Positions 1,332 through 8,763 of a DNA stretch of 35,210 nucleotides are shown piece after piece; position 1 is the stretch's first letter, and the number at the start of each line of letters is the position of its first letter. Source of the stretch: Anaerolineales bacterium (GTDB lineage Bacteria > Chloroflexota > Anaerolineae > Anaerolineales > Villigracilaceae); contig JAGUZU010000071.1 of the NCBI GenBank assembly GCA_020060625.1, positions 1 through 35,210 on the forward strand, read 5' to 3'. A program made the translations under genes and the position numbers. The notes under the pieces are model-generated. The model saw only the letters and a program-made list of their open reading frames with translations, was not told the origin of the DNA and did no database searches.

Positions 1332-2123
1332 TCACCCCTTCATCGGTTTCCCCGATCCCTTGTCGCGGACCATCAACACCTCCGCCATAATGCTGACCGC
1401 GATCTCTTCGGGCGTCTCCGCCTCGAGTTCGATTCCCATCGGCGAATGGACTCGCGCGATTCTTTCCTCGGAAACTCCCTTTTCCTTCAATGCTTTGGTG
1501 GTCGTTGCCCAGCGGCGCTTCGAGCCGATCACGCCGATGTAGGCGGCGGGGGAATCTAGAAGCGCGGGCAGTCCTGCCGCATCCACGTTCGAGCCGCGTG
1601 TCGTCAGAATCAGGAACGTCCGCTTGTTGATGGAAATATGCTCGCCGAGTTTCTCCATCGGAACAGCGTGATACGAATCCGCGCCGGGGACGACTTCGGG
1701 CGTGCAGAATTCCTCGCGGTCATCGCAGACCGCCACGCGGAATCCCAGCCACTTCGCCAAATGCGCGACAGCCTTGCCCACGTGTCCCGCGCCGATGACG
1801 ACCACCGTTGGGGTCGGAAGGATCGGTTCCACAAACACCTCCACCTGACCGCCGCACACGCCGGGATCGCCGCGCGAGGGATCAGCCATGTTGTAATGCA
1901 GCAGGCGCGGCTCGCCGTCGCTCATCGCCATCCAAGCCTCATCGAGGACGCGATGCTCCAAATCCCCGCCGCCGACCGTGCCGATGAATTTGCCGTCGGG
2001 ATACACCAGCATTTTGCTGCCCACGTGCCGCGGCGTGGAGCCTTCGCTCTTCACCACTGTGCATAACGCGGCGGAACCGTTGTTCTTTTCGATTTCGGAG
2101 AGGGCTTGGTAGATTGAATTCAT
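1332..2123 (-). CDS. xdhC: XdhC/CoxI-family molybdenum cofactor insertion protein
   Basis: The 263-residue protein has the XdhC layout: an N-terminal XdhC/CoxI domain with GSTPRHVGSKMLV (about 28-40) and a CGGQ motif (90-93), then a Rossmann segment with GAGHVG (111-116). XdhC proteins bind the molybdenum cofactor, favour its sulfuration and hand it to xanthine-dehydrogenase-type hydroxylases. The natural client is the fused molybdenum hydroxylase at 4012-7014, two genes upstream on the same strand. The start codon overlaps the stop of the small membrane protein upstream by four bases (ATGA), so the two are translationally coupled. That coupling is odd because the upstream gene has no evident link to molybdenum. 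Confidence 0.92.
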   Translation of the reverse strand: MNSIYQALSEIEKNNGSAALCTVVKSEGSTPRHVGSKMLVYPDGKFIGTVGGGDLEHRVLDEAWMAMSDGEPRLLHYNMADPSRGDPGVCGGQVEVFVEPILPTPTVVVIGAGHVGKAVAHLAKWLGFRVAVCDDREEFCTPEVVPGADSYHAVPMEKLGEHISINKRTFLILTTRGSNVDAAGLPALLDSPAAYIGVIGSKRRWATTTKALKEKGVSEERIARVHSPMGIELEAETPEEIAVSIMAEVLMVRDKGSGKPMKG

Positions 2124-2535: not shown

Positions 2536-3879
2536 TTATCTTTCCAATAAACCCAACACCACAGGCAGCAACTGCTTCTTCCGGGAAACCACGCCGGGCG
2601 CGTCGCGCGTGCCGTCGGGCAGGGGCGGGTAGTGCAGGTCGTTGAGGATGGGCGGGTGATCGGACGAGATCAGCAGGCGGCTGGAACCGCGCACCACATC
2701 GGTCACCAACAGCATGGCAAAATCCAGCCCGCGCTTGTCCCTTAATTCATCGAGGGATTTCATAAGCGGAGTGAGATGTTCGGAAAGCTGCATCAGGTCG
2801 GTCACTTCGGCTTGGGCGATGGCGAGTTTGAAGCCGCCCGCCTCGTAGGCTTTGATATCCGTGCTGACGATCTCTTCCGGTTTGCGATGTGAGAGTCCCG
2901 CGCCCGCCGAAAGCACGGCTTTGCCGTAGGAATCGATTGTCTCGCCCTTAAGCGGACTTCCGCCCACGAACGCCCATCGCGCAAGTTTTTGGGCGGCGGC
3001 ATGGTCGCGCGGCGTGGTCGTGGGAGATGTCAATATAAGGGTATCAGATAAAAGTCCGGCAAGAAGCGCGCCTGCCAGCGCCGGTGGGGCGGAGAGCCCC
3101 GCTTCGGCGGTCTGTTCCGTCACAAGCGTCGAAGTCGAGCCGACCACATCCACCTTGAAGCGGATGGGTTGGTGTGTGTACGGGTTTCCGAGGCGGTGAT
3201 GATCGAGGATTTCGAGCAGTTCCGCCTCTTCGAGTGCGGCAATTGCCTGGCGCGGCTCGTTATGATCCACGAGAATAATTTTCAAGCGCGGCGGGTTGAG
3301 CAGGTTACGCTGGCGGGCAATGCCGAGATACAGCCCGTTTTCATCCACCACCCAGTAATCGTCAATTTCGTCGCGCAGGATGCGGTTGAGCGAATCGCGG
3401 ATGTGCGCGTTGGCGGAGAACTTTGGAATACTCGTGTTCGCCGCATCCTTGCACGGCGCGGACATCATCTCGCGCGCGGTGGCGTCCCCGGGTTGCGGAC
3501 CCAGCGTTTCGGAAAAATACTTGAACAGGCTGAAGCCGTTGATAAGCCCGTAAGGCGTGCCGTCTTCGTTGACGACGGGCGCAAGCCCGCCGGTGCGGCT
3601 GGCAAGATTCCACGCCATGCCGATCTGCGAATCGGGGCGGATGGTGTCGAACCGCTGCATCACGGAATTGAAGCGCGGCGACGCATCCGTCAGCAGAGTC
3701 GGCGCTTCGAGTTCGAGAGTCTTCAACACCCACGAGGTCTGCGCGTTCAACGCGCCCGCGCGCGCCGAGATTGCGTCGGCTCCATCGCGCTCGCGCAGCA
3801 GCCAGGCATACCCCATGGCGGAGGCGATGGAATCGGTATCGGGATTGATGTGACCCACTACAAAAATTTGATCGGACAT
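2536..3879 (-). CDS. ppaC: Mn-dependent (family II) inorganic pyrophosphatase with CBS insert
   Basis: This enzyme hydrolyses pyrophosphate to phosphate in the cytoplasm. The DHH domain is split by a regulatory insert. The N-terminal motif GHINPDTDS (9-17) is followed by a CBS pair (about 65-195), then DHNE (205-208), DHHRLG (226-231) and GSTST (247-251). The C-terminal DHHA2 domain ends with the substrate-binding SRKKQLLP segment. The 447 residues fit a CBS-PPase; in characterised members adenine nucleotides bind the CBS pair and modulate activity. I see no DRTGG domain between the CBS motifs, so this is the shorter type. All metal-binding motifs are present. A TATAAT lies about 38 bases upstream of the start. 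Confidence 0.93.
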   Translation of the reverse strand: MSDQIFVVGHINPDTDSIASAMGYAWLLRERDGADAISARAGALNAQTSWVLKTLELEAPTLLTDASPRFNSVMQRFDTIRPDSQIGMAWNLASRTGGLAPVVNEDGTPYGLINGFSLFKYFSETLGPQPGDATAREMMSAPCKDAANTSIPKFSANAHIRDSLNRILRDEIDDYWVVDENGLYLGIARQRNLLNPPRLKIILVDHNEPRQAIAALEEAELLEILDHHRLGNPYTHQPIRFKVDVVGSTSTLVTEQTAEAGLSAPPALAGALLAGLLSDTLILTSPTTTPRDHAAAQKLARWAFVGGSPLKGETIDSYGKAVLSAGAGLSHRKPEEIVSTDIKAYEAGGFKLAIAQAEVTDLMQLSEHLTPLMKSLDELRDKRGLDFAMLLVTDVVRGSSRLLISSDHPPILNDLHYPPLPDGTRDAPGVVSRKKQLLPVVLGLLER

Positions 3880-4011: not shown

Positions 4012-7000
4012 TTACTGGCGCCTGATCGCCTTCCAGACCTTCTCCGGCGTGGCGGGGATCTCATCCACGTTCACGCCGACGGCATCCAGGATCGCGTTGC
4101 CCACTGCTGGCGCGACGCCGTCCATCGGAATTTCCGCCACCGCCTTCACTCCGAACGGATGGCTCGGCTCGAACGTCTCCACGAAGATGGTCTCCAGTTC
4201 GGGCATCTCGTCTGCGCGGAAGATGTGATAGCGGTCGAAGTCTCGTTCGATGGCGTTGCCTTTTTCATCGTAGCGCATCTCCTCGCAGACCGCGTAGCCG
4301 AGCGCCTGCGTCATGCCGCCTTCGATCTGCCCCGAAGCCGTCAGCGGATTGACGATCACGCCCGAATCCACCGCCATGACGAGTTTGTCCACGGTGACCT
4401 GACCTGTTTCGGTGTCCACGGTCACTTCGGCGAACTGCGCGGCGAACGGCGGCGGCGAGACCGGCGAGACGTAACTCGCCACGCCCATGATCTGCTCCTG
4501 GTTGTTCTTGTGCAGGGTGTCCAATGCAACTTCGGCAAGGGTCACAGAACGTCCGTCGGGAGCGATTGCCTTCCTGTCCGATAATCGAATATTCGAATAT
4601 TCGGACTCCGCAAGTCCGAGCATCGTTGCCGCGCGGATTTTGATCCGCTCCGCCGCGATCTGAGCCGCTTTAGTCGCGGCAGTCCCCGAAATGTACGTCG
4701 TTGAAGAAGCATACGCGCCCTTGTCGAACGGCGTGAAATCCGTATCCGACGAATAGCAGATGATGTCCTCGACGGGAACGCCGAGAACTTCCGCCGCCAT
4801 CTGCGCAAGGACGGTGTCTGAACCTGTCCCCAAATCCGTTGCGCCGACCAGCAGGTTGAACGAGCCGTCGTCGTTCATCTTGATCGAAGCGCCGCCCATA
4901 TCGAGGTAGGGGATGGCGGTTCCCTGCATGACCATCGCAACGCCAATCCCCTTGCGCTTGTAGGACAAGCCTATGGCTTGTCCTTTGGCTTGTCCACGCA
5001 AGTCGGAGATTTGCGGTACATGCCACGCCTCATTCCCAAACTTCTGATCCCAGCCAATCGCCGCCTTGCCCTGCACGACGCATTGCTCCAGCCCAACCGT
5101 GTGGATGATCTCCGGGCGCGGCTCGCGTCCCTCGTTCCATGCCGTCGAGAAGGGGTGATATTCACCAGGGTGGATCGCGTTCTTCAAACGGAATTCAATC
5201 GGGTCAAAACCCATCGCCCGTGCGATCTTTTCGATATGACGATCAAGGGGCCAGTAACCCTGCGGCACGCCATAGCCGCGGAAGGCGCCAGCGGGCGGCG
5301 TGTTGGTATACACGATATCCGCGTAGAAGCGGATGTTAGGACTCTTGCGATACTCCCCGTCGCCGACGTACAACGCCATGGATTTGTGACCTGTGTTGCC
5401 TGTCACGGTCAGCGCATGGCAGCCGTACGCGCCCGTATCCGACAGCGCATACATGGAGTTAGCGGTGATGGTTCCGTCCTTTTTCACGCCCGTTTTCATC
5501 TTGATCCGCATGGGATGGCGCGAGCGCGCGGCGATGAATTCCTCTTCGCGGGTGTACTCGTAAATGACCGGGCGCTTGGTGGCGATGGTCAGGTGCGCAG
5601 GCACGTCTTCCATCAGCACTTCCTGTTTGCCGCCGAAGCCGCCGCCGATGCGCGGCTTGATGACGCGGATGCGCTTCACAGGCAGACCCAGCACGGGCGC
5701 GAGCATCCTGCGCACGTGAAACGGCACTTGAGTTGATGTGCGAATCACAAGACGGTCATCCTCGTCCCAATACGTGACCGCCACGTGCGGCTCGATGTGC
5801 GCCTGCTGTACCTTTGGCACTTCGTATTCGGCTTCGAAAATTTCATCCGCTTCGGCGAAGCCTTTTTCCACGTCGCCGATGTCAATGCGGATGTGCGCTG
5901 CAAGATTTTTGTCGGGATTTGAATCCGCAAAGTTGACATACTCTGGCTCGTCGTGGATTTTCACGGGGTTATCCAGTGCTTCGCGCGAGTCCAGGATGGC
6001 GGGCAGGATTTCGTATTCCACCTCGATCAGCGACAACGCCTTCTCCGCAATTTCGGGCGTCTCCGCTGCGACGAACGCCACACGGTCGCCGACGAAGCGG
6101 ACTTTGTTATCCAATGAAAACGTATCCAGCGGACCGGGAATCGGGTCGGATTGTCCTGCCGTGGAATACACCACTCGCGGAATATCCTGCCACGTCAGCA
6201 CCGCGGCGACGCCATCGAGCGACTTGGCTTTTGTTGTATCGATCTTTTTGATCTTTGCATGTGCGTGCGGCGAATGCAAAACCTTCGCGTGGAGCAATCC
6301 GCGTTTTTCAAAGTCGCCTGCGAAGGCGGGCTTGCCCTGCACCAGTTTGATCGCGTCCACTTTGATCTCGGGCTTGCCGACGGTTTGCCAGGTCTGGCTT
6401 TCGGGTGTGACCACTACTTTTGGTCGAACCAGCACAGAGGTCGGAGAAGAGGCGGGCGCGTCCGTGGCGGGAGAATCAGGCGCGGGCGTCCCGAAATCCC
6501 AATTGATCGAGCGGATGTCAATCGGTTCGTCGCCGCGCATTTCCGCCGCCGCTTTCAACACCGCCTGGACGGGTTTGAGATAGCCCGTGCAGCGGCACAG
6601 GACGCCGGAAATCGCCTCGCGGACCTCCGCCTCGGTTGGGTTGCTGTTTTTCTCGAGCAGACTCTTCGCCGCGAGAATTTGCGCGGGCGTGCAGTAGCCG
6701 CATTGGATCGCACCCGACTCGACGAATGCGCGCTGAAGCGGATGCAAGCCGTCGGTCTTCCTCCAGCCCTGTTCGGGATGTTCGCCGAGCGCTTCGATGG
6801 TGGCGACGCTGTGACCTTCCGCCTGCGCCGCAAGCATCGAACCCGCGTTGACCGGCTTGCCGTCCAGCAGCACCGTATCCGCGCCCGAAAGCCCGTGCTC
6901 ATCGCCGAACTTCACGCCGTGAAAGCCCAGTCCGCGCAGCGCGGCGAGCAGGGTGGCGGATGCGGGGGCGTCCAGTGTGTGTTCAATTCCGTTGATTTTG

Positions 7001-7014
7001 AGGGTGATGTTCAT
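4012..7014 (-). CDS. Fused molybdenum hydroxylase (FeS + Moco domains), first cluster site lost
   Basis: This 1000-residue member of the xanthine dehydrogenase/aldehyde oxidoreductase family has the FAD-less order of Desulfovibrio MOP: ferredoxin-like domain (1-76), helical [2Fe-2S] domain (about 85-155), linker, then the Moco-binding domains. The helical-domain ligands are intact (C105, C108, C140, C142). In the ferredoxin-like domain the four ligand positions (spacing 5, 3, 12) are D38, S43, D46 and G58, so no cluster can bind there in the usual way. The Moco part keeps RIGGGFGGKQE, GAFRGYG, DLGTGSDT and a C-terminal AEIP segment carrying the expected catalytic Glu. The start is the ATG at 7014, with AGGAG directly upstream; the frame is open further but without similarity. 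Residues around 673-684 come from a REP-like palindrome. The substrate is unknown; xdhC lies nearby. No FAD subunit is encoded in the window. Confidence 0.92.
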   Translation of the reverse strand: MNITLKINGIEHTLDAPASATLLAALRGLGFHGVKFGDEHGLSGADTVLLDGKPVNAGSMLAAQAEGHSVATIEALGEHPEQGWRKTDGLHPLQRAFVESGAIQCGYCTPAQILAAKSLLEKNSNPTEAEVREAISGVLCRCTGYLKPVQAVLKAAAEMRGDEPIDIRSINWDFGTPAPDSPATDAPASSPTSVLVRPKVVVTPESQTWQTVGKPEIKVDAIKLVQGKPAFAGDFEKRGLLHAKVLHSPHAHAKIKKIDTTKAKSLDGVAAVLTWQDIPRVVYSTAGQSDPIPGPLDTFSLDNKVRFVGDRVAFVAAETPEIAEKALSLIEVEYEILPAILDSREALDNPVKIHDEPEYVNFADSNPDKNLAAHIRIDIGDVEKGFAEADEIFEAEYEVPKVQQAHIEPHVAVTYWDEDDRLVIRTSTQVPFHVRRMLAPVLGLPVKRIRVIKPRIGGGFGGKQEVLMEDVPAHLTIATKRPVIYEYTREEEFIAARSRHPMRIKMKTGVKKDGTITANSMYALSDTGAYGCHALTVTGNTGHKSMALYVGDGEYRKSPNIRFYADIVYTNTPPAGAFRGYGVPQGYWPLDRHIEKIARAMGFDPIEFRLKNAIHPGEYHPFSTAWNEGREPRPEIIHTVGLEQCVVQGKAAIGWDQKFGNEAWHVPQISDLRGQAKGQAIGLSYKRKGIGVAMVMQGTAIPYLDMGGASIKMNDDGSFNLLVGATDLGTGSDTVLAQMAAEVLGVPVEDIICYSSDTDFTPFDKGAYASSTTYISGTAATKAAQIAAERIKIRAATMLGLAESEYSNIRLSDRKAIAPDGRSVTLAEVALDTLHKNNQEQIMGVASYVSPVSPPPFAAQFAEVTVDTETGQVTVDKLVMAVDSGVIVNPLTASGQIEGGMTQALGYAVCEEMRYDEKGNAIERDFDRYHIFRADEMPELETIFVETFEPSHPFGVKAVAEIPMDGVAPAVGNAILDAVGVNVDEIPATPEKVWKAIRRQ
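4959..4995. repeat. Degenerate REP-like palindrome inside the molybdenum hydroxylase frame
   Basis: GGACAAGCC (4963-4971) and GGCTTGTCC (4975-4983) form a perfect 9-bp inverted repeat around TAT, and GGCTTGTCC recurs at 4987-4995. The left side, TGTAGGACAAGCCTAT, matches TGTAGAACAAGTCTAT of the palindrome at 7025 in 14 of 16 bases. It is translated as an apparent short insertion (GQAKGQAIG) in the host protein. Confidence 0.7.
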
Positions 7015-7024
7015 GGCAGCTCCT

Positions 7025-7054
7025 TGTAGAACAAGTCTATAGACTTGTTCTACA
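7025..7054. repeat. Perfect 30-bp palindrome downstream of the RAYT gene
   Basis: This perfect palindrome has the core CAAGTCTATAGACTTG and outer arms TGTAGAA/TTCTACA. It contains the stop codon of the transposase gene (7050-7052) and abuts the ribosome-binding site of the molybdenum hydroxylase. The same core is in the palindrome at 7718-7747. The arrangement fits a REP/RAYT pair, in which a single-strand Y1 transposase recognises hairpins at its borders. Confidence 0.9.
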
Positions 7055-7703
7055 GCAGGTTGGGATTGATGTAAGTATAAGACCAGTCCTGCCAATTCTC
7101 AACCAGCCCAGCCTTGACGGGGTTATTGGCAATGTACTCAAGGATTCTCATAAATTCCTGTTCATTTCTTACAACATGGTCGTAACTTTCATGCTGCCAG
7201 AATGCGCCTTTACGCCCGAGTAATTTTGCGCAGGCATAACCTGTCCGCCCTTTGAGCAGGCGCATGGCGTGACTTACTGCGGTGTAGTGTTTTTCGTCGC
7301 CTGATGGCGGCGGTTCGGGGATGTCCTGCTGGTTCATCAGCAGATGACAATGATTGCTCATAATGCAGTAAGCATGCAGACAATAAAAATCAGGATGCAG
7401 AGTGTGAAGTTCTCGTACAACAATTTCCGCGAATCGCGGTTCGGCAAGCCAGCGCGGTCCGTCGTTGGGATGGTCGAGCAAAGCGTCGAAGCGGGCGAAG
7501 TGGCGTTTTTGCGCTTTGTAGCGTTCTTCGCGCAGTTCGTTTCCCTTGAACTTTCCAGACAACGAGCGTTTTTCGTTCTCGTATTCCTCTTTTAATTTTT
7601 TCCATACCTCCACAGGCAGGCTGCCTGCCAGCCGAAAGGTGATGAAGTACGCGGCGTTGGGCAAATGATAATGGGGGAGGTTGCGGTGAAAGTATTCGCT
7701 CAT
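7050..7703 (-). CDS. rayT: REP-associated tyrosine transposase (Y1, IS200-like)
   Basis: The 217-residue protein belongs to the Y1 transposase family (HUH nucleases). The metal-binding HUH motif is HCH in MSNHCHLLM (about residues 117-125). A candidate nucleophilic Tyr lies in the helix with LLKGRTGYACAKLLGRKG, followed by the family-typical FWQHESYDHVVR and YIANNPVKAGLVENWQDW segments. Such proteins nick single-stranded DNA at REP hairpins and are usually single-copy, domesticated genes. This copy appears intact and sits between two perfect palindromes that match it as a REP/RAYT unit. It separates the nucleotidyltransferase pair from the molybdenum hydroxylase. Confidence 0.92.
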   Translation of the reverse strand: MSEYFHRNLPHYHLPNAAYFITFRLAGSLPVEVWKKLKEEYENEKRSLSGKFKGNELREERYKAQKRHFARFDALLDHPNDGPRWLAEPRFAEIVVRELHTLHPDFYCLHAYCIMSNHCHLLMNQQDIPEPPPSGDEKHYTAVSHAMRLLKGRTGYACAKLLGRKGAFWQHESYDHVVRNEQEFMRILEYIANNPVKAGLVENWQDWSYTYINPNLL

Positions 7704-7717
7704 GGTTTACTTGGACG

Positions 7718-7747
7718 TGTAACGCAAGTCTATAGACTTGCGTTACA
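7718..7747. repeat. Perfect 30-bp palindrome upstream of the RAYT gene
   Basis: Perfect palindrome with core CAAGTCTATAGACTTG and outer arms TGTAACG/CGTTACA. It ends exactly where the stop codon of the nucleotidyltransferase begins (7748-7750) and lies 14 bases before the transposase start codon. The core is identical to that of the palindrome at 7025-7054; the arms differ but remain complementary, as expected for elements selected for hairpin structure. Confidence 0.9.
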
Positions 7748-8269
7748 TCACTTGATGCGATTCCTCAATTCCTGTAAATGGGCAAGGATGTCTGGGTGGA
7801 AATCGTATTTACCCGCGTGCGTCAAGCCTTCTTGTGTAATGCGCTCCAATTCCTCCAGGGTTATGTGATTTTGTTGTAGTAGAAAAACGAGATCATCCAA
7901 ATCGCGGTCGCTGCCGCGATCCAGTTTACTGAGCGCAATGCTATATGGGTCAAAGACATAAACATGTACATTGCCATATTGACCGATGTGTATCCTGCGT
8001 TGTTCACTTCCTTCTGGCAGCGGTACGAAATGCTCTATGGGTACAGCCTCTATTTCCAATCCAAGTTCCCTGGCAATTTTCTCGATGACGATTTGAAATT
8101 CGTTCTTGTGAATATCATCGCCTGCGTAATCAACATCCAGTGTTTCACGTGAGCTTCCCAGCAGAATCATCGCGCCGCCCCCGAGCAGGGAGAGCGTTGC
8201 ATTTTTGGGGTATTGATTTCCCAATCGTTCAAAAAACTCTTGTATGCTTCGTTTTGATACGGCTTTCAT
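7748..8269 (-). CDS. DUF6036-like nucleotidyltransferase (possible toxin)
   Basis: The 173-residue protein has the start of a minimal pol-beta nucleotidyltransferase fold: GGGAMILLGSSRETLDVDY (about 30-48) gives the GG...DxD signature with D45 and D47 as metal ligands. The later segment DPYSIALSKLDRGSDRDLDD is typical of AbiEii/DUF6036-type proteins. Such enzymes transfer nucleotides to RNA or protein and are often toxins of type IV-like systems. The gene overlaps the upstream partner (8266-8763) by four bases, so the pair is co-expressed. Family and fold are fairly secure; a toxic role is inference from context beside a transposase. Confidence 0.8.
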   Translation of the reverse strand: MKAVSKRSIQEFFERLGNQYPKNATLSLLGGGAMILLGSSRETLDVDYAGDDIHKNEFQIVIEKIARELGLEIEAVPIEHFVPLPEGSEQRRIHIGQYGNVHVYVFDPYSIALSKLDRGSDRDLDDLVFLLQQNHITLEELERITQEGLTHAGKYDFHPDILAHLQELRNRIK

Positions 8270-8763
8270 CCGAATTTTTCCACATATTTGACGAAACGTT
8301 CCGCGCTGTGTTCGTACGTTTCAACCCAGTTTATGATCCGTCCACTCAAAACTTGGTGACGCTTTCCCAAACGGATCAGAGCCTCGTCGAGGTCGGTGTC
8401 AAGCGTGATGCCCAATTTCTCCGAAAACAGATCGGGCAACTGAATTTGCCCGCCAATGACCTTCATCAACCGCTCCTGATATTTTTTTTGAAGCAGTACC
8501 GTGGCAGTGTAGTAGAAGCGGAGATAAAGTTGCTCCGCTGGTGATAGCCGTTCATCCGCCCTAATCACTTCGCTGGAAAATTCAGGGTGACGCAAGAACA
8601 AGGGGATCAATGCCATTCGTATGCGCGCCTCGTTGCTCTGCGCCAGCGACTGAATGAGAGTAGCAGGGTCGAGGAGTGGTTCGGGGTTGGTCTGTTCTCC
8701 CATCAAAAAAGGAACATCCCGCGCCCAGAGTTCGGAAACCAGTTGATCTTCGCTGATCATCAT
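8266..8763 (-). CDS. Partner protein of the nucleotidyltransferase, unknown family
   Basis: This 165-residue, mostly helical protein has no motif I can name. It is translated first in a two-gene unit and overlaps the nucleotidyltransferase by four bases (ATGA), the arrangement expected of an antitoxin or cognate subunit. GAAGG lies about six bases before the ATG. A second ATG follows immediately (MM), so the exact start is uncertain by one codon. It could be an antitoxin, or a housekeeping partner supplying substrate specificity. Confidence 0.75.
   Translation of the reverse strand: MMISEDQLVSELWARDVPFLMGEQTNPEPLLDPATLIQSLAQSNEARIRMALIPLFLRHPEFSSEVIRADERLSPAEQLYLRFYYTATVLLQKKYQERLMKVIGGQIQLPDLFSEKLGITLDTDLDEALIRLGKRHQVLSGRIINWVETYEHSAERFVKYVEKFG

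Follow-up and report, generated by a model that had tools for sequence, protein, structure and literature searches.

Loss of the N-terminal [2Fe-2S] cluster ligands in an XdhD-like molybdenum enzyme of a Chloroflexota bacterium, and its recurrence among relatives

The xanthine oxidase family is the textbook example of an intramolecular electron wire, made of molybdenum, two [2Fe-2S] clusters and FAD. In the 35,210-nucleotide stretch of Anaerolineales contig JAGUZU010000071.1 analyzed here (the window), one gene encodes a member of this family that lacks every cysteine ligand of one of the two clusters, raising the question of how electrons pass to or from its molybdenum centre. The clusters are named by their arrangement in solved structures: cluster II is the N-terminal ferredoxin-type cluster and cluster I the helical-domain cluster beside Mo. 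The relevant features of the window are the following.

4012-7014, minus strand: xdhD-like gene for a fused [2Fe-2S]/Moco subunit of 1000 amino acids (best NCBIfam model TIGR03313; 36% identity to E. coli XdhD)
6775-7014, minus strand: N-terminal domain with a ferredoxin-like (beta-grasp) fold, residues 1-80, lacking cluster ligands (predicted strands and helix, block pLDDT 77-93; median dN/dS 0.115)
6841-6903, minus strand: loop that formerly held the ligands of the N-terminal cluster (II) (translation, ortholog alignment)
6559-6777, minus strand: helical [2Fe-2S] domain (Fer2_2) of cluster I, with C105, C108, C140 and C142 kept (Pfam PF01799, alignment)
6004-6339, minus strand: a/b hammerhead domain (Ald_Xan_dh_C) (Pfam)
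5176-5916, minus strand: Moco-binding domain 1, with Q429 at 5728-5730 (Pfam, alignment)
5131-5133, minus strand: E628, aligned with E606 of E. coli XdhD, a proposed substrate-orienting residue (alignment; PMC12507026)
4201-4971, minus strand: Moco-binding domain 2 (Pfam)
4132-4134, minus strand: E961, just after Moco-binding domain 2, in the column of the xanthine oxidase family's catalytic glutamate (alignment)
2536-3879, minus strand: DHH/DHHA2 phosphoesterase (inorganic pyrophosphatase-like), a recurrent neighbour (L064, L065, L094, L098) (family models, Pfam, neighbourhoods)
1332-2123, minus strand: XdhC/YqeB-type Moco maturation factor, a recurrent neighbour downstream of orthologs (family models, Pfam, ortholog neighbourhoods)

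Translation of 4012-7014 gives 1000 residues and a terminal stop with no internal stops; the 1027-residue open reading frame at this gene corresponds to a start at an upstream TTG. Codons 38-58 run from 6903 down to 6841 and, aligned with cluster-keeping relatives, the four cluster II ligand columns read D38 (6901-6903), S43 (6886-6888), D46 (6877-6879) and G58 (6841-6843) in an intact frame (GVKFGDEHGLSGADTVLLDGKPVNAGS). These are the replacements that an earlier note on this DNA had proposed, and alignment and Pfam likewise agree with its statement that the second cluster and the Moco residues are intact, all four cluster I cysteines being present. Pfam scores PF02738, PF20256 and PF01315 above their cut-offs in this protein and gives no match to the N-terminal ferredoxin domain (Fer2) at an E-value of 0.001. 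Judged by these residues and domains, the protein lacks the four-cysteine ferredoxin-type [2Fe-2S] site expected of the xanthine oxidase family and retains the four-cysteine helical domain, the Moco domains and the hammerhead domain. By prediction, the N-terminal fold is retained despite the missing ligands: AlphaFold2, run on 29 aligned rows (mean pLDDT 83.8), places beta-grasp strands at residues 2-7, 10-15, 47-50, 53-56 and 69-71. Foldseek matches the predicted fold to 1sij (E 5.8e-78), and the best solved matches, 1sij and 1dgj, both Desulfovibrio MOP, have TM scores by query of 0.78 and 0.79.

The altered loop is fixed across the bacterial family to which the genome belongs. Ortholog searches covered 400 genomes of the phylum and 100 of the same family, 88 of which carry the gene; 85 family orthologs, in batches of 24 and 61, have a readable N-terminus, leaving out G431 (matched only from residue 89, with one stop reported) and the partial G406 and G418. 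None of the 85 keeps any of the four cluster II cysteines. D38 and D46 are invariant in all 85, and position 43 is serine or threonine in 84, with alanine in L269. Because orthologs share this state, including those of the single-contig genomes G005, G104 and G332, resequencing is very unlikely to restore the cysteines, and a sequencing or frameshift artefact is rejected. Median dN/dS across 11 family members falls from 0.115 in the N-terminal domain to 0.072 in the loop, 0.063 in the helical domain and 0.050 in the Moco part; the values are rough, coming from 42-51 usable pairs of 55 with a median dS of 0.96-1.59. The low loop value indicates that the altered loop is maintained under purifying selection, and the same ratios reject a pseudogene.

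Cluster I is less uniform within the family. All four of its cysteines are found in 80 of the 85 orthologs, and the five exceptions all belong to genus g241 (five of its eight readable members), where the positions read S-C-D-E (L239, L264 and L266) or G-Y-S-A (L235 and L238). Within the family, these residues suggest that cluster I was lost after cluster II, in g241. Separately, four family genomes contain a second copy, about 50% identical (L076, L270, L271 and L272), in which all eight cysteines are kept; the E628 equivalent is present in the three copies that were looked at.

Beyond the family, 144 rows were sorted by motif: 142 loci, the window protein and E. coli XdhD. Two of the loci are paralogs of about 33% identity that serve as the outgroup, and six partial or Moco-only matches were left out. 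Both clusters are kept in 77 rows, II is lost in 38, both are lost in 28 and only I is lost in one, proportions that are not those of nature, since the loci are the best matches listed (the best 80 in one search). "Lost" here means that the motif is broken, and some both-lost rows still have one cluster I cysteine. With the ligand regions removed, a tree of 913 columns (quick method, LG+G4) requires at fewest nine changes for cluster II and six for cluster I, counts that are approximate because several branches are weakly supported (23 to 55); the cluster I losses of g241, whose rows the tree does not include, come in addition. With the outgroup as root, the window protein falls inside a clade of 34 uniform II-lost rows with an SH-aLRT of 100, so that the D/S/D/G set does form a clade, as the earlier note had envisaged. 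The change count itself gives no direction, and we read the changes as losses because the regain of four spaced cysteines is implausible. On this reading of the tree, cluster II was lost about nine times in the XdhD enzyme type, and some lineages, including E. coli XdhD, lost both clusters. The reverse pattern is also seen: L165:9905-12961, and L066 with the same residues, keep cluster II and have S, D, S and E in place of the cluster I ligands.

The residues that replaced the cysteines of cluster II are convergent. Eight of the nine loss lineages have aspartate at ligand 1, eight have serine or threonine at ligand 2 and seven have aspartate at ligand 3, with the full D-S/T-D set in six. Two mixed lineages are scored in these counts by their D-S/T-D members: one has L176 (S-T-D) beside L153 (D-S-D), the other L175 (D-S-S) beside L170, L173 and L174 (D-T-D). 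The E. coli XdhD row reads D-A-D in a loop one residue longer, and the large both-lost clade differs, with mostly S-T-A or S-T-S followed by D or E at ligand 4. A change from cysteine to aspartate takes two base changes, and aspartate in eight of nine lineages has a chance of about 3e-11 under a BLOSUM62 null, a null that ignores structure and takes lineages as independent. The same null gives a probability of about 1e-7 that C142 is replaced by aspartate or glutamate in every one of the six cluster I-loss lineages on the tree; the G-Y-S-A rows, a later loss outside the tree, have alanine there. The four former cluster II positions carry a net charge of -2 in 42 of 66 rows and of -1 in the remaining 24. 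For the former cluster I positions the charge is -2 in 23 of 29 rows and -1 in six; the G-Y-S-A rows are uncharged at site I. By these counts, charge preservation is only partly true, and it was rejected as a strict rule. We infer that the convergent replacements form a plug that restores charge and hydrogen-bond acceptors at the vacated cluster site.

The identity of the enzyme bears on which way its electrons flow. The protein scores 675.7 bits against TIGR03313, the E. coli XdhD model, under its curated cut-off of 1101.9, and is therefore filed as XdhD-like and not as a member of that model; the XdhA model NF043082 is a close second (674 against a cut-off of 780). The full-length alignment with E. 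coli XdhD shows 36% identity. In the passages of PMC12507026 that concern this residue, E606 is proposed to be present in XdhD and absent from XdhA. Its equivalent, E628, is present in the window protein, and both E. coli XdhA and an XdhA-like paralog from the same genome have a gap at this position. Of the rows with a cluster loss, 67 of 67 have E628, as do 55 of the 77 that keep both clusters. The other 22, which are not independent by descent, have all eight cysteines; 20 are in-group rows less than 50% identical to the window protein, two are the outgroup, and five of the 22 lack E628 by alignment gap. Because losses occur only in rows with E628, the sample shows cluster loss in the XdhD type only. 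The rows in the state of the window protein keep the residues of the molybdenum site, with Q429 in 38 of 38, E628 in 38 of 38 and E961 in 37 of 38, the remaining one being an X.

Gene neighbourhoods supply a candidate for the flavin subunit. The earlier note had advised looking for conserved partner proteins, and a YgfM homolog is present in all 24 family genomes searched; in 21 of them it lies 0.02-10.6 kb upstream in the same orientation, and in G000 (the genome of the window), G055 and G361 it is on another contig. No flavin subunit is labelled in the window contig; the genome's own YgfM lies at G000:C21:63201-63935 (PF00941, 80.8 bits) and its SsnA on C47. SsnA, SelD and YqeB (on C92) score over their family cut-offs in this genome, and YgfM over Pfam's. 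Among 61 family genomes, SsnA is over cut-off in 53 and SelD in 54, and in at least seven family genomes (G382, G037, G104, G248, G005, G018 and G240) SsnA lies about 8-28 kb from the gene on the same strand. The presence of SelD and YqeB is a weak sign of a Se-dependent molybdenum hydroxylase system, as SelD also serves selenocysteine and YqeB lies beside another XDH-like enzyme. That enzyme, at G000:C92:20956-24031, is a separate two-gene unit (an FAD-FeS fusion and a Moco subunit) with a YqeB-type gene nearby, and none of the eight cysteines is missing from its FeS domain.

In another family of the order (L064 and L095-L098), the operon order is SsnA, F420:NADP oxidoreductase (Fno), CofE, CofD, a luciferase-like protein, YgfM, the XdhD-like enzyme and XdhC. 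SsnA is seen in L064, L095, L096 and L098, the L097 stretch starting after it. In L064 and L098, XdhC follows a DHH gene. After XdhC the operon continues with a second FAD-FeS and Moco enzyme, and L095-L097 have YqeB with MocA or YqeC beyond that second enzyme where the stretch reaches. According to the passages of PMC12507026 on these clusters, a putative F420-dependent luciferase-family enzyme replaces YgfK or UacX in SsnA clusters of Chloroflexota. Judged by these neighbourhoods, the XdhD-like window protein probably belongs to the SsnA/F420 reductive purine (urate) pathway of Chloroflexota and reduces urate.

A REP-associated tyrosine transposase-like gene at 7050-7703 (76.5 bits against a cut-off of 80) sits between the xdhD-like gene and an upstream M16 protease gene, flanked by perfect palindrome copies at 7032-7047 and 7725-7740 (region 7029-7745); the 16-mer has nine sites in the genome and none in a reversed control. 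At 7748-8763, overlapping small genes encode a DUF6036 nucleotidyltransferase-like protein and a 165-residue protein without a Pfam match.

There is no support for the idea that YgfM was lost along with the clusters. Counted over those of loci L041-L100 and L127-L206 whose ortholog has at least 50% identity, YgfM lies upstream in the same orientation in 36 of 52 with both clusters kept, 22 of 33 with II lost, none of one with I lost and 20 of 27 with both lost, counts taken over flanks of differing length. A whole-genome search with the YgfM profile matches all ten of ten genomes of mixed state, with best scores of 172-322 bits and others of at most 138. The best match is beside the gene only in G397, G139 and G264, and in the other seven it is a candidate YgfM or the flavin subunit of another enzyme. 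The flavin site of YgfM itself varies. At loci in the state of the window protein, 21 of 22 YgfM proteins retain the first FAD motif, and all 22 have A-G in place of G-G in the second ([TS]xGG in 0 of 22), so that flavin binding may be altered. The A-G variant was rejected as a mark of cluster loss, as 11 cluster-kept rows share it. Seven loci with all eight XdhD-like cysteines (L064, L098, L151, L154, L156, L168 and L169) have a YgfM whose second motif is gone, the first being altered in at least five. The YgfM of the both-lost L170, L173, L174 and L175 has no second motif and GGA as its first. All ten YgfM proteins scored, including those of L098, L169, L170, L173 and L175, have FAD_binding_5 above the Pfam cut-off (31.1-101.3 bits against 27).

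These neighbourhoods recast the claim of the earlier note, which saw a hydroxylase whose electrons lack their usual exit. Its premise stands, in that the usual chain cannot be complete. Its wording on the exit is not supported: an oxidative hydroxylase with a blocked exit was set aside for the XdhD context, because relatives' neighbourhoods form a reductive purine cluster and the E. coli counterpart is reported to reduce urate with NADH, so that electrons probably enter. In the E. coli work (PMC12507026, in its passages on XdhD), XdhD purified with a protein of about 30 kDa, putatively YgfM, formed yanthine from urate and NADH (10 uM enzyme, 1 mM substrates); the stated controls omit enzyme or substrate, and a no-NADH control is not spelled out. 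The same passages report that yanthine built up in a urate-fed xdhA deletion. A commentary (PMC12990295) gives, in the passage concerned, an AlphaFold3 ipTM of 0.94 for the E. coli XdhD-YgfM pair.

At the level of sequence, cluster II is lost with cluster I and the Mo site kept, YgfM co-occurs and is linked, and the loss recurs with mostly the same acidic or hydroxyl replacements. The explanation we favour, at somewhat better than even odds, is that the protein is the XdhD-type Mo subunit of the Chloroflexota reductive purine (urate) pathway, working with a separate YgfM by a long hop from flavin to cluster I, with D-S/T-D(-G) as a plug. The reaction would be removal of the oxygen at C6 of urate, yielding 2,8-dioxopurine (yanthine), the product reported with E. 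coli XdhD-YgfM. Electrons would enter at the YgfM flavin, which must reach cluster I directly as cluster II is absent, and would pass to cluster I and on to Mo in a single long hop, or in a hop after the flavin subunit moves. The replacement set would plug the empty site by charge and hydrogen bonds, keeping the domain folded. A longer hop may be affordable for a slow reductase, which would make the distal cluster dispensable and allow its repeated loss. For assumed hop distances, the Moser-Dutton ruler, at zero driving force and 0.7 eV, puts transfer at about 10 to 2500 per second over 16-20 A and about 0.01 per second over 25 A. A long hop is thus plausible for the state of the window protein. 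It cannot explain all relatives, because enzymes without either cluster would need perhaps 25 A or more, at about 0.01 per second; for these, a mobile flavin subunit, a different donor or the absence of any chain would have to be invoked. Points against the favoured reading are the TIGR03313 score under cut-off, the A-G motif of YgfM, the position of YgfM and SsnA off the window contig, and the loss of I with II kept in L165 and L066.

Electrons could instead come from an external one-electron carrier (ferredoxin, flavodoxin or an F420-linked protein) that docks on the helical domain and feeds cluster I, leaving YgfM structural or vestigial. We consider this unlikely. It would account for the varying FAD motifs of YgfM, including the A-G motif in 22 of 22 loci of the window's state and the missing second motif at seven eight-cysteine loci, and would suit the F420 genes (Fno, CofE, CofD, luciferase-like) of the operon in the other family; fused Fe-S/Moco enzymes without FAD also exist, among them D. 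gigas MOP, the best fold match. However, YgfM is present in all 24 family genomes and linked in 21, FAD_binding_5 is above cut-off in ten of ten YgfM proteins scored, and no conserved adjacent ferredoxin gene was identified among neighbours that were mostly labelled against chosen references only. Such a route also fails in lineages without cluster I.

A somewhat less likely alternative dispenses with the electron chain: a redox-neutral Mo centre would couple C8 hydroxylation of one purine to C6 dehydroxylation of another, as a transhydroxylase does, converting xanthine to yanthine overall with urate as intermediate or co-substrate. At that same low probability, XdhD-type enzymes would be becoming Moco-only, through redox-neutral transhydroxylation (xanthine + urate to urate + yanthine) or direct Mo reduction, with the window's family a one-cluster intermediate and several members of one genus without either cluster. 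Dismantling of the chain piecemeal and in varied order (II only, I only, both, or the FAD motif only) with the Mo site kept would fit this, as would the confinement of losses to E628 rows and the state of L170, L173, L174 and L175, in which both clusters and the second YgfM motif are gone and the first motif is GGA. Yanthine formation from urate and NADH by E. coli XdhD and its accumulation in the xdhA deletion (PMC12507026, same passages) suggest net reduction instead, and YgfM is retained, with FAD_binding_5 still above cut-off for L170, L173 and L175. It is very improbable that D38, S43 and D46, together with backbone atoms, hold a different metal ion or a cluster with oxygen ligands. The near-invariance of Asp-S/T-Asp in the family and its convergence elsewhere speak for such a site, but the largest both-lost clade, mostly S-T-A/S-D/E, looks poor for metals, and charge with hydrogen bonding is the simpler explanation. 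That the protein is an inactive remnant, or that its cysteines were lost by sequencing error, has nothing in its favour beyond the missing ligands and is barely credible against median dN/dS of 0.05-0.12 in four stretches, the agreement of 85 of 85 orthologs and an intact Mo site.

Among characterized systems, the closest is E. coli XdhD-YgfM (TIGR03313, Se_sel_red_Mo), the urate reductase of the reductive uric acid pathway. It shares the fused Fe-S/Moco architecture, E606 as the counterpart of E628, the glutamine and glutamate of the Mo site and, in the genome, a YgfM-type partner with SsnA, SelD and YqeB. It differs in having none of the eight cluster cysteines, whereas the window protein lacks only the four of the N-terminal cluster, and in YgfK, which gives way in Chloroflexota clusters to F420-type genes and a luciferase-like protein. 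The Desulfovibrio aldehyde oxidoreductase MOP (1sij, 1dgj), the best fold match, is a fused Fe-S/Moco chain with both [2Fe-2S] clusters and no FAD domain; the window sequence is without the N-terminal cluster. Canonical xanthine dehydrogenases (E. coli XdhABC, R. capsulatus XDH) have both clusters and work in the oxidative direction. They share the Mo domains, the helical [2Fe-2S] domain and the FAD-binding part; E. coli XdhA, unlike the window protein, has an alignment gap in place of E628. Pyrogallol-phloroglucinol transhydroxylase performs redox-neutral Mo chemistry and belongs to the DMSO reductase family, with another fold and substrate, and serves as an analogy only.

The main text of PMC12507026 contains neither "2Fe-2S" nor "cysteine", and its sole "iron-sulfur" concerns YgfK. 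Loss of clusters in XdhD is not discussed in the relevant passages of that paper, PMC12990295, PMC2276186, PMC2997495 or PMC11448449, and no title or abstract start among the literature matches listed deals with it. A passage of PMC11448449 notes that the molybdenum hydroxylase loci of C. difficile differ in their FAD and FeS subunits, which may tune redox chemistry.

The loss described here is real, fixed and recurrent, and it occurs in an enzyme type that is already known and for which a function has been reported. It bears on E. coli XdhD, in which the reported NADH-dependent urate reduction would proceed without any cluster to carry electrons to Mo. A branch of the xanthine oxidase family that has repeatedly removed parts of the wire, in varied order, with the Mo site and as a rule the flavin-subunit gene kept, offers a set of natural experiments on which parts are needed.
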